DNA from: Pseudomonas sp. NC02
GTDB lineage: Bacteria; Pseudomonadota; Gammaproteobacteria; Pseudomonadales; Pseudomonadaceae
DNA length: 64,000 nt
Reading direction: 5' to 3'
Assembly (NCBI RefSeq): GCF_002874965.1
Contig: NZ_CP025624.1
Span: forward strand, 4,836,001-4,900,000
A program made the translations under genes and the position numbers. Below the pieces are notes generated by a model. The model saw only the letters and a list, made by a program, of their open reading frames with translations, did no database searches and was not told the DNA's origin. Shown piece after piece: positions 23,503-56,430 of the stretch; within the stretch, counting starts at the first letter, position 1; each line of letters begins with the position of its first letter.

Positions 23503-24310
23503 CATATCCGTTATTTTTGTAATGGCGACTATGGGTTCCGCTCTTACAGCGGGTCACTTTTGAAAAGCGCAAAAGTAACCAAAACGCTCTTGCCCCACCA
23601 CTCGGCACCTCGCCTAGGCTCGGTGTGCCCTCACTCCGGCTTTGGAGCGTGGGCCGCCGTCATGGGCCATCCTTGGCCCAGGACGGCTAACCCGGCGTCC
23701 TGCCGGGTTACCCACGCTCCAAAGCCTGCGTTCGGCCAGCGTGGTTTAACGGGGCGCCCAAGATCAAGATCAAAAGCCAGAGCACAGCGGCCTACCGGCC
23801 GGCTTGAGTGTTGAAGAGCAAAATCAAAAGCTGAAGCGGGCACGGTCAAATGTGGGAGCTGGCTTGCCTGCGATGGCATCGCCTCGGTGTATCTGAAAAA
23901 CCGAGTTGTCTGCATCGCAGGCAAGCCAGCTCCCACAGAAAAGCAGAGCTGCATCAGCTTCAGATTTGGCTTTCGCTCTGGATCTTGCCTTTGCTTTTAA
24001 CACTCAAGCCGGCCGGGAGGCCGCTGTGCTCTTGATCTGCTTTTGATCTTGATCTGACTGCCCCATTCAGCCCGAGGCCGAACGCAGGTATTGCGGAGCG
24101 GGTAAACCGGCAGGACGCCGGTTTAGCCGCGCCGGGCCATGGATGGCCCGTCGCGGCGGCCCGCGGAGCAATGCCGGAGTGAGGGAACGCCGAGCCACAG
24201 CGAGGCGCCGACAGGCGGGGCAGAGCGTTTTGGTTACTTTTGCGCTTTTCAAAAGTGACCCGCTGTAAGAGCGGAACCATAAGCAGCCGTTACCGAAGAA
24301 ACGGATATGT
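23503..24310. repeat. Composite palindromic element, copy A (inserted between atuE and atuF)
   Basis: 808 bp, non-coding. Ends are CATATCCGTTATT and AAACGGATATG. Both arms carry the block GCTCTTACAGCGGGTCACTTTTG...GCGCAAAAGTAACC in inverted orientation. Inward of it, each arm has an enclosed hairpin pair (23639-23725 on the left; about 24090-24175 on the right). The centre is a REP doublet (23852-23936, GTGGGAGCTGGCTTGCCTGCG type). No transposase and no ORF with a ribosome site. It occupies what would be the intergenic space inside the atu operon. Same orientation as copy D. Confidence 0.9.
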
Positions 24311-24335
24311 ACCCGACAAGCCAAGGACCACCACC

Positions 24336-26270
24336 ATGCCGATGTTCAACAAAATCCTCATAGCCAACCGTGGCGAAATCGCCTGCCGCATCCAGCGCAC
24401 CGCCCAATCCCTGGGCTACCGCACCGTAGCGATCTACAGCGAAGCCGACACCGACGCCCTGCACGTCCAGATGGCCGACGAAGCCATCAACATCGGCCCC
24501 GCCCCGGTCACCCAGTCCTACCTGAACATCGAAGCCATCCTCAACGCAGCCCACCGCACCGGCGCCGACGCCATCCACCCCGGCTACGGCTTCCTCTCCG
24601 AAAACCCCGACTTCGCCCGAGCCTGCGCAAACGCCGGCCACACCTTCATCGGCCCCAGCCCCGAAGCCATCGACCTGATGGGCAGCAAACGCCTCTCAAA
24701 AATCGCCATGCTCAACGCCGGCGTCCCCTGCATCAAGGGCTACCAAGGCCCCGACCAGGACGACCCAACCCTGCAACAACAAGCCACCCACATCGGCTAC
24801 CCACTGATGATCAAGGCCAGCGCCGGCGGCGGCGGCCGCGGCATGCGCCTGGTACACAACCCCGACACCCTGCTGGAACACCTGCGCACCGCCCGCTCCG
24901 AAGCACAAAACGCCTTCGGCAGCGCGGAACTCATCCTCGAACAAGCCCTGATCGCCCCCCGCCACGTCGAAATCCAACTGTTCGGCGACACCCACGGCAA
25001 CCTGATCTACCTCGGCGAACGCGACTGCTCGGTCCAGCGCCGCCATCAAAAAGTCATCGAAGAAGCCCCCTGCCCCGTCATGACCCCCGAGCTGCGCCAA
25101 GCCATGGGCGAAGCCGCCCTCAAGGCCGCGCGCGCCGTCAATTACGTCGGCGCCGGCACGGTGGAGTTCCTGCTCGACCGCGACGGCAATTTCTACTTCC
25201 TGGAAATGAACACCCGCCTGCAGGTCGAACACCCGGTCACCGAACTGATCACCGGCCTCGACCTCGTCGCCTGGCAACTGCACATCGCCGCCGGCCAACC
25301 TTTGCCCCTGAGTCAGGAACAAGTGACCCTCACCGGCCACGCCATGGAAGTGCGCCTGTACGCCGAAGACCCGGCCCAGGGCTTCCTCCCGCAAACCGGC
25401 GACGTACTGCGCTGGGACCCGGCGCCAGGTGTGCGCATCGATCATGGCGTACTGGAAGGCCAGCGCATCACCCCGTTCTACGACTCGATGCTGGGCAAGA
25501 TCATCGCCCACGGCGCCACCCGCGAAGAGGCCCGGCGCAAGCTGGTCAGGGCCGTGGAAGACTGCGTGCTGCTCGGCGTGCCCACCAACCAGCGCCTGCT
25601 GGCCAGCCTGCTCAAGCATCCACACTTCATCGCCGGCGATTTCAGCACCGGCTTTATTGCCGAACACTTCAGCGACATCCCGCGTACCCACGCGACCAAC
25701 GAAGAGCTGGCCCTGGCCGCCGCGCTGTTTTACCAACACAGCGCCAGCGCTCACACCCAGCCATTATCCGGCTGGCGCAACAACGCCAGCGTGCCCTGGA
25801 CCTGGCAATTGGCCGAACACGACGAGCCCCGGGCCATCAGCCTCAGTGTGCTGGCGGACAATTGCCTGCACGTCGAGATTGATCAGCACGCCATCGAAAT
25901 ACGCGACCTCTCCACCGACGGACGCTGGGCCACCGCCGTTCTCAACGGCATTCGCCGTCGCATTGCCTACCACCTGCAAGGCACCCGGCTCTGGTTGCCC
26001 GGCGTGTGCATCAATGATCGAACCCAAACCGTCGCCACCCGCCAGGCCGAGGCCGGCAACGGCACGGTCAAGGCGCCGATGGACGGGGCAATTGTCGAAG
26101 TACGGGTCAGCGAAGGCGATTCGGTCAGCAAGGGCCAGCTGTTGCTGGTGCTGGAAGCGATGAAAATGGAGCACCCACTCAAGGCCGGCATGAGTGGCGT
26201 GGTCAAGCGAATCCAGGCGGTTGCAGGCGATCAGGTCAGGAACCGTCAGATTTTGCTGGAGATCGAGTAA
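24336..26270 (+). CDS. atuF: Geranyl-CoA carboxylase, biotin carboxylase/carrier (alpha) subunit AtuF
   Basis: 644-aa biotin-containing subunit: ATP-dependent carboxylation of biotin, then transfer by AtuC to geranyl-CoA. Order: biotin-carboxylase N domain (KILIANRGEIACRIQRTA), ATP-grasp with the glycine-rich loop KASAGGGGRGMRLV (~160), EMNTRLQVEHPVTE (~290), C domain, then a biotinyl domain whose EAMKM places biotin on about Lys610. Start ATG 24336 after AAGGA; the frame open back to 24240 is repeat DNA. The first kilobase is A/C-rich on the coding strand. Separation from atuE by copy A means it may depend on read-through or on a promoter at the element edge. No atuG or atuH homologue follows. 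Confidence 0.93.
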   Translation: MPMFNKILIANRGEIACRIQRTAQSLGYRTVAIYSEADTDALHVQMADEAINIGPAPVTQSYLNIEAILNAAHRTGADAIHPGYGFLSENPDFARACANAGHTFIGPSPEAIDLMGSKRLSKIAMLNAGVPCIKGYQGPDQDDPTLQQQATHIGYPLMIKASAGGGGRGMRLVHNPDTLLEHLRTARSEAQNAFGSAELILEQALIAPRHVEIQLFGDTHGNLIYLGERDCSVQRRHQKVIEEAPCPVMTPELRQAMGEAALKAARAVNYVGAGTVEFLLDRDGNFYFLEMNTRLQVEHPVTELITGLDLVAWQLHIAAGQPLPLSQEQVTLTGHAMEVRLYAEDPAQGFLPQTGDVLRWDPAPGVRIDHGVLEGQRITPFYDSMLGKIIAHGATREEARRKLVRAVEDCVLLGVPTNQRLLASLLKHPHFIAGDFSTGFIAEHFSDIPRTHATNEELALAAALFYQHSASAHTQPLSGWRNNASVPWTWQLAEHDEPRAISLSVLADNCLHVEIDQHAIEIRDLSTDGRWATAVLNGIRRRIAYHLQGTRLWLPGVCINDRTQTVATRQAEAGNGTVKAPMDGAIVEVRVSEGDSVSKGQLLLVLEAMKMEHPLKAGMSGVVKRIQAVAGDQVRNRQILLEIE

Positions 26271-55615: not shown

Positions 55616-55631
55616 CTCCGCGGTGTTGGGG

Positions 55632-56430
55632 ACATATCCGTTATTTGGGTGATGGCTTATATCGGTTCCGCTCTTACAGCGGCTCACTTTTGAAAAGCGC
55701 AAAAGTAAGCAAAACGCTCTTGCCCCACCACTCGGCACCTCGCCTAGGCTCGGTGTGCCCTCACTCCGGCTTTGGACCGTGGGCCGCCGTCATGGGCCAT
55801 CCTTGGCCCAGGACGGCTAACCCGGCGTCCTGCCGGGTTACCCACGCTCCAAAGCCTGCGTTCGGCCAGCGTGGTTTAACGGGGCGCCTAAGATCAAGAT
55901 CAAAAGCAGATCAAGAGCACAGCGGCCTACCGGCCGGCTTGAGTGTTGTAAATCAAAAGCTAAAGCGGGCACGGTCCAAATGTGGGAGCGGGCTTGCTCG
56001 CGAAGGTCGTTAACGATGACGCGGGCATTCTGGATGAACGCGGCGCTCTCAGGTTTTTCGCGAGCAAGCCCGCTCCCACAGAAAAGCAGCTCTGCTTTCG
56101 CTCTGGATCTTGCTTTTGCTTTTAACACTCAAGCCGGCCGGGAGGCCGCTGTGCTTTTGCTTTTGATTTTGATCTGACTGCCCCAATAAGCCCGAGGCCG
56201 AACGCAGGTATTGCGGAGCGGGTAAACCGGCAGGACGCCGGTTTAGCCGCGCCGGGCCATGGATGGCCCGTCGCGGCGGCCCGCGGAGTAATGCCGGAGT
56301 GAGGGAACACCGAGCACTAGCGAGGTGCCGACAGGCGGGGCAGAGCCCTTTGCTTACTTTGGGGCTTTTCCAAAGTGAGTCGCTGTAAGAGCGAAACCAT
56401 AAGTAGCCGTTACCTAAAAAACGGATATAC
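55632..56430. repeat. Composite palindromic element, copy D
   Basis: About 799 bp, same orientation as A: ends ACATATCCGTTATT and ACGGATATAC, left arm with TTACAGCGGCTCACTTTTG, a REP doublet at 55982-56079, right arm of the second type (AAACCGGC/GCCGGTTT hairpin). Nearly identical, in inverse orientation, to copy C, 12 kb away. No ORF with a start signal. Confidence 0.9.

Follow-up and report, generated by a model that had tools for sequence, protein, structure and literature searches.

A palindromic dispersed repeat of Pseudomonas sp. NC02 that carries the TwoAYGGAY motif and is flanked by an element-bound skew in coding DNA

The stretch of the Pseudomonas sp. NC02 chromosome analyzed here (the window: 64,000 nucleotides, positions 4,836,001 to 4,900,000 of contig NZ_CP025624.1) holds four copies, A to D, of a palindromic dispersed repeat that carries a known RNA motif, TwoAYGGAY, in inverted arms placed around a doublet of repetitive extragenic palindromic (REP) sequences. 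Its most surprising property lies outside it: for about 1 kb on each side, the neighboring coding DNA has a strong local skew that is bound to the element. The left-minus-right step in GC skew, taken over 700 bp on each side, is positive at all 53 elements tabulated in the genome (mean 0.470, sd 0.122), versus −0.006 (sd 0.079) at 1718 random positions. The preliminary description of the copies had not noticed this skew; the excerpts that we searched of the literature on compositional skew and palindrome breakage describe neither a skew beside such elements nor any footprint left in base composition by natural palindromes.

Copies A, C, and D are about 810 bp long and share one layout: a left arm, the REP doublet, and the right arm in inverted orientation, with arms of about 350 nt each. 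Copy B measures about 375 bp and has lost most of its arms. A preliminary description made from the letters of the window had proposed four copies with common ends, inverted arms, and a central REP doublet, one of them deleted, and our re-reading of all four agrees with it, including an element built around REPs and, in the arm of copy A, a 15-bp stem enclosing two hairpins. The ends were rightly recognized as shared but reach 7 bases further outward: a profile of 106 genome ends gives the consensus G-R-G-K-R-Y-A-TATCCGTT, and 97% of these ends have G at each of two fixed outer positions. Outside this conserved end the profile shows nothing but G/T richness, and it was there that G/T richness far outside the element was first seen. 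The element was also said to encode no protein and no transposase; indeed, a Pfam scan of the seven open reading frames at or overlapping the window copies left six without a match, the seventh being the neighboring carboxylase gene. Two of the elements sit inside conserved operons, liuC-like/liuD-like (23498–24314) and cobQ/cobU (G000:C1:1722871), where both flanking genes are kept; gene calls were made with our own codon-based script and the names liuC, cobQ, and cobU were assigned by eye.

Table 1. Element copies, their parts, and the skewed flanks of copy A in the window. Copy coordinates are those of ends extended to the start of conservation.
Feature	Position	Strand	Remark
Element copy A, full length	23498..24314	.	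between liuC-like and liuD-like genes
Element copy B, internally deleted	36793..37168	.	ends and REP doublet kept, without RF01731 match
Element copy C, full length	43623..44433	.	between convergent genes
Element copy D, full length	55628..56434	.	
Copy A central REP doublet	23851..23937	.	direct sequence reading
TwoAYGGAY left arm, copy A	23631..23733	-	RF01731, 49.7 bits (gathering 43)
TwoAYGGAY right arm, copy A	24100..24162	+	RF01731, 45.8 bits
TwoAYGGAY left arm, copy C	43779..43841	-	RF01731, 45.8 bits
TwoAYGGAY right arm, copy C	44198..44300	+	RF01731, 46.2 bits
TwoAYGGAY left arm, copy D	55761..55863	-	RF01731, 46.3 bits
TwoAYGGAY right arm, copy D	56220..56282	+	RF01731, 45.8 bits
Copy A left flank	22501..23497	.	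GC skew +0.32 (1-kb window 22501-23500)
Copy A right flank	24315..25500	.	GC skew −0.20 to −0.24 (1-kb windows)

The genome consists of one contig of 6.89 Mb, and a search with copy A as query returned at least 89 matches, both orientations counted, the best 40 of 572 candidates having been scored. Sixty-five loci were examined, of which 53 have both inverted ends, 11 have unpaired ends, and one is a duplicate. Window copy B is additional to this table of 53 elements, in which the widest end pair was taken at each locus and a few lengths are overlong (such as L002, L010, and L257); shortened forms reach 125–139 bp. Most copies lie at gene ends, as a rule only a few bases away from a stop codon, and 63 of the 73 neighboring gene tails are at most 40 bp from the element. 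The elements keep clear of the origin: the first 1 Mb of the contig, at the start of which dnaA and dnaN are found, holds one of the 53 elements and the last 0.88 Mb none, although these two regions make up about 27% of the genome.

The folded arm, for which the preliminary description knew no function, belongs to a described family. A cmscan search finds TwoAYGGAY (Rfam RF01731) in both arms of copies A, C, and D, always outward-facing and above the gathering score; together with the recurrence of the element through the genome, these six matches mean that the copies are not due to chance. The genome as a whole has 88 RF01731 matches, 83 of them over the 43-bit cut-off. With at most the best nine candidates scored per genome, the motif passes the cut-off in at least 185 of 298 genomes of a Pseudomonas sample and in at least 14 of 274 of a class-wide sample, both including our own. 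The class-wide loci comprise eight opposite-strand pairs at distinct places, seven of which are outward-facing as judged by eye, the eighth (L303) not. In the excerpts available of the respective papers, TwoAYGGAY is graded as probably a biological RNA and tabulated for human gut, gamma-proteobacteria, and Clostridiales (Weinberg 2010, PMC2864571), is predicted to bind CsrA (Gardner and Eldai 2014, PMC4333381), and gains two additional covarying pairs from R-scape (Rfam 15, PMC11701678). The arms of our element share with the family a score above gathering, the fold, and the GGA loops; they differ in being one part of a long inverted-repeat element present in tens of copies, and the portions searched of the literature on the motif contain no link to dispersed inverted-repeat elements.

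In the window, the loop of hairpin 2 is AGGAC and that of hairpin 1 is ATGGAT or AAGGAT. The invariable GTCCT loop of the preliminary description (AGGAC on the RNA strand) thus holds for hairpin 2 in the window, while the true constant is GGA in each RNA-strand loop: it is present in both loops of 150/150 genus arms in alignment A3 (the best 150 of 156 hits, all Pseudomonas, 76 of them distinct). In other genera, both loops carry GGA in 18 of 27 arms by predicted fold, and the remaining nine have one loop ACGAC. The compensating variants that had been claimed for hairpin 2 are real: four forms occur in the genome, AACCCGGC, AAACCGGC, AACCTGGC, and AAATCGGC, and 99.3% of hairpin 2 cells are paired in A3. 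At six loci from other gammaproteobacterial families (L079, L080, L081, L082, L086, and L087), a hairpin block resembling TTTCTTTG...CAAAGAAA was seen by eye beside TwoAYGGAY, followed by an ACCAAA-like or GACGAAA-like stretch and GC-rich sequence; the composite may therefore be much older than Pseudomonas.

Such constant loops on covarying stems, in both arms and in a family with predicted CsrA binding, could point to a function as RNA. Read-through transcripts would present both GGA hairpins of an arm and so bind up CsrA/RsmE-type proteins, the element being kept as a dispersed sponge, or they would mark 3' untranslated regions; the outward-facing arms would yield one sense unit for either direction of transcription, the neighboring gene tails are close, the motif recurs 88 times, and the genome has four CsrA-family genes. 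However, the full transcript of copy A is predicted to pair arm to arm (minimum free energy −632 versus −381 kcal/mol for local pairs only), which would hide the GGA loops; nine of the 27 arms from other genera are without one GGA loop in the predicted fold; and the flanking skew would be left unexplained. We consider this reading of the elements doubtful. Titration of Rsm proteins by GGA hairpins acting as RNA would be a possibility separate from the mechanism of the skew.

The fold itself was assessed on two alignments, both fitted to the model structure, and the tree-aware test was run with our own R-scape-like script rather than R-scape. In A3, 95.1% of cells pair and 19 of 35 pairs vary on both sides, with a covariation score of 0.384 as against 0.117 after shuffling and at most 0.068 with the partner slid; the number of further pair types does not exceed that of the shuffles (39 versus 41.3). 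When a tree-aware test is applied to the genus arms alone, with about 1.9 changes per column, one of the 35 pairs is individually significant and the mean pair score lies above all 200 simulations. Alignment A4, made of 86 distinct arms from several genera with 6.0 changes per column, gives 13 of 35 pairs at E < 0.05 and none of the 3881 other column pairs, the mean pair score being 65.7 versus 0.38 (sd 2.01) simulated. The covariation of the arm fold is real: the conserved, covarying fold of the preliminary description, which had proposed a covariance-model check, stands above background in the multi-genus set. DNA palindromes can be perfected by template switching, and correction of imperfect palindromes in this way at replication, rather than selection on the fold, could mimic covariation, a view to which the outer stem, the most-changing part of the fold, lends itself. 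It would not fix the loops, though, and the GGA loops remain constant while the stems of both hairpins change; moreover, other families of the class have the same fold in sequences that are unlike. Template switching is thus an unlikely source of the covariation.

The two arms of an element are usually not of the same type. Both arms could be aligned at 36 of 50 loci of the genome, and in 33 of these an arm with AACC in hairpin 2 and TC in hairpin 1 is paired, in either orientation, with an arm of type AAA/CG; two of the remaining dimers are mixed and one is a homodimer. Judged on hairpin 2 alone, 35 of 36 are heterodimers. The binomial p for 33/36 against one half is 2e-7 with copies taken as independent, and descent from a single ancestral heterodimer would likewise give this excess. 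A near-perfect palindrome would be an obvious target of hairpin nucleases, an argument made for REP heterodimers in the part consulted of PMC3733652, where SbcCD and inverted repeats are also mentioned. The A/B heterodimer design may reduce the stability of the hairpin and help the element to survive.

The elements appear to be old residents of their sites. The preliminary description proposed looking for target-site duplications and for empty sites in related strains. No target-site duplication is found in 40 elements (lengths 2–6 and 8–10, offsets 0–13 on each side, best z 2.5; one end is misplaced in two rows, L039 and L052). In the close relative G282, 28 sites were asked, of which 13 were unjudgeable, and 0 of the 15 checkable sites (both flanks on one contig, 0.28–1.2 kb apart) is empty. 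Elements persist at the same site between species, as testified by nine same-site pairs between our genome and G282 or G048, the best segments of which are 85–91% identical. Site C is filled in our genome, G282, G059, G095, and G048 (seen over the 135 bp up to the contig end), and 25 of the 29 loci read there outside our genome are empty. At the liuC|liuD place of copy A, P. costantinii has a shortened element and 11 other Pseudomonas loci have none (12 Pseudomonas among 80 loci fetched). Two plasmid and two phage records match, none with 80% of the query covered in one place.

In being non-coding, bounded by terminal inverted repeats in the profile of 106 ends, and present in many copies, the element resembles the bacterial miniature inverted-repeat transposable elements (MITEs), and the mobile-element reading of the preliminary description fits the ends and the copy number. 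Mobility in the past is nearly certain. That the element is now actively mobile, as a non-autonomous MITE moved in trans by the transposase of another element, would also suit the single-arm and dimer forms in other species and the empty sites in more distant relatives; it differs from MITEs in its stable sites and its lack of target duplications, and the loci read at end sites, short of a genome-wide scan, hold no transposase between such ends, so that present-day mobility seems improbable. In the copy that holds a transposase (L048, 740–1910 of G000:C1:2383398-2386000), the central REP is interrupted by an insertion carrying a 315-residue IS110-family transposase gene (Pfam). REPINs and bacterial interspersed mosaic elements (BIMEs) share the REP doublet and the logic of an inverted dimer, but here REPs are only the center of some 810 bp and the bulk, arms, ends, and size differ, whereas a REPIN is made up of two inverted REPs that a RAYT transposase moves. 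The intergenic R178, R200, and R26 repeats of P. fluorescens (Silby 2009, PMC2718517; compared by description only) come from the same species group, in which repeats are biased to the space between gene tails; they measure 101–352 bp, and the part consulted of that paper lists no family at about 810 bp and mentions no RNA motif or flanking skew. Taken together, the elements are non-coding palindromes of long standing that have been passed on vertically: inverted heterodimers in which a structured arm, composed of TwoAYGGAY and further hairpins, stands on each side of a REP doublet.

The skew that surrounds these elements is visible at all four window copies. Averaged over 26 elements, GC skew reaches +0.30 to +0.34 by the left end and −0.43 by the right end and fades over a kilobase; pooled, the flank skew is 0.383 in the first 100 bp, 0.027 at 1.0–1.1 kb, and −0.001 at 1.5–2 kb. 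TA skew likewise shows a positive step at 41 of the 44 long elements. Gene junctions taken as controls from the window and five other genome stretches give steps of −0.009 (sd 0.077) when codirectional (n = 61) and 0.045 when convergent (n = 12) without REP, 0.090 (n = 6) and 0.091 (n = 4), respectively, with REP, and 0.027 when divergent (n = 16). At third codon positions, the sign of the skew is independent of gene direction: within 700 bp of 44 elements, GC and TA skews at these positions are +0.48 and +0.65 on the left flank for genes pointing toward the element and +0.35 and +0.38 for genes pointing away, and on the right flank −0.47 and −0.71 toward and −0.40 and −0.35 away. The mean step is 0.476 between convergent genes (25 elements), 0.496 between codirectional genes (23), and 0.319 between divergent genes (5). 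With the contig start, the site of dnaA and dnaN, taken as the origin, the step of the 44 elements is found on both fork sides, 0.270 at entry and 0.200 at exit. In addition, the octamer GCTGGTGG, which is the Chi site of E. coli but may not be that of Pseudomonas, occurs in the element flanks 22 times pointing toward the element and once away, the Markov expectation being 6.8 with codon structure outside the model. Octamers oriented toward the element would halt a RecBCD enzyme arriving from a break there.

Comparison between species indicates that the skew follows the element; counts and p-values in this analysis assume independent copies, although some sites are common to several species. 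Among 30 cobQ|cobU loci, one of which was not assignable, third-position GC skew is +0.64 on the left and −0.43 on the right in the five species with an insertion bearing these ends, probably a single clade, and +0.04 and −0.02 in the 24 empty species (5–69 nt from last sense codon to start codon). At site C, the left 500 bp show a skew of 0.15–0.20 when filled versus −0.07 to 0.15 when empty, and the right side −0.26 to −0.36 versus −0.10 to −0.23. The last third of liuC has a third-position skew of +0.79 in our genome and +0.83 in P. costantinii, and the start of liuD (in ours, the first 100 codons) −0.72 and −0.61. In seven species with REP doublets at this junction (L091–L096 and L158) the skew is weaker and shorter, the last third of liuC ranging from +0.23 to +0.57, and in four others this third is at −0.06 to +0.01; at the start of liuD, all 11 species that lack the element share a baseline of −0.37 to −0.60. 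Sixty arm loci from 15 other Pseudomonas genomes, chosen from the top RF01731 hits of the genus sample, comprise 22 dimers, 36 single arms, and two ambiguous loci that were left out. The mean step is 0.262 at dimers (21/22 positive) and 0.067 at single arms (26/36 positive, seven above 0.15; Mann–Whitney p 6.8e-6), as compared with −0.013 (sd 0.080) at far positions of the same loci.

The direction of substitution was read at three sites from fourfold codons for which the ancestral base is clear (305 of them lie within 600 bp), always on the strand that has its 3' end toward the element; the ancestral set of site A is 11 species, seven of them with REP doublets. Within 600 bp, C was lost at 62 of 123 positions (41 to G, 19 to T, and 2 to A) and G at 15 of 176, whereas beyond 1.2 kb the losses are 6 of 32 and 5 of 37. 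Likewise, C/T and G/T differences between our genome and its relatives exceed A/G and A/C differences within 600 bp and are near balance beyond 1.2 kb. Since divergence from the relatives is flat with distance (0.052–0.069 in all bins), it is the direction of substitution that is altered and not visibly its rate.

SbcCD cleaves long palindromes in E. coli, and the same activity would explain the palindrome as a recurrent site of incision. In the mechanism that we propose, the imperfect palindrome of about 400 bp would form a hairpin or a cruciform when it is replicated and would then be incised, SbcCD being a candidate nuclease (sbcD is present in the genome). The ends would then be resected in the 5' to 3' direction, exposing the 3'-ending strand, which is the top strand on the left and the bottom strand on the right, and this strand could be damaged before repair, for instance by deamination of cytosine. 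A long-term drain of C from it would leave the flanks rich in G and T. Such resection would expose exactly the two C-poor strands, so that the sign of the skew fits incision and resection, as do its symmetry, its independence of genes and forks, and the requirement for a dimer. On balance we lean slightly toward repeated hairpin incision, resection, and damage of the 3'-ending strand at old palindromic elements as the origin of the skew, the break being inferred.

Several observations weigh against an element-driven skew or this origin of it. Net changes are most often from C to G, ahead of C to T, so that simple deamination needs a second step: a C deaminated to T could later change to G, or a parallel path may exist. 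The mutation rate near the elements is not raised. Step size is not correlated with the length of the element (Spearman −0.13, p 0.37); a remnant of 139 bp still has a step of 0.42, perhaps a scar from a time when the element was longer. Steps above 0.25 occur at three of the 36 single arms, which may be younger than dimers or differently placed, and one of the 22 dimers is negative. Two empty cobQ|cobU loci (L327 and L335) have a left skew of 0.38 and 0.34, with no end remnants seen there that would betray the ghost of a lost element; empty site C loci are less skewed than filled ones but not free of skew; and, of the four species with low skew at liuC|liuD, two (L097 and L098) carry other short inverted repeats at the junction that are not accompanied by skew. 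At 20 loci from other genera, the steps of dimers are weak and mixed, and a claim of skew for these genera was dropped. That the skew was not caused by the element at all, which would have inserted into existing skew switches or lie in a skew due to convergent transcription or replication strand bias, could draw on the position of most copies at gene ends, on the weak step at convergent junctions, and on the skewed empty loci at site C and cobQ|cobU, but it is very improbable given that the 24 empty cobQ|cobU loci average close to zero, the sign is the same with genes pointing away, the step exists on both fork sides, and it is mostly missing at single arms.

Many Pseudomonas TwoAYGGAY copies, then, lie in dispersed palindromic repeats. 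More tentatively than the origin of the skew, we propose that natural long palindromes are places where breaks or gaps recur in living Pseudomonas populations, each with a symmetric, strand-asymmetric substitution scar of about 1 kb, and that the A/B heterodimer keeps the palindrome sublethal; the sequence could then show where, and for how long, such sites have been opened. If the resection reading is true, genome comparisons can map where natural palindromes expose single strands, and the codon usage of sequence close to these repeats would be set by DNA repair rather than by translation.

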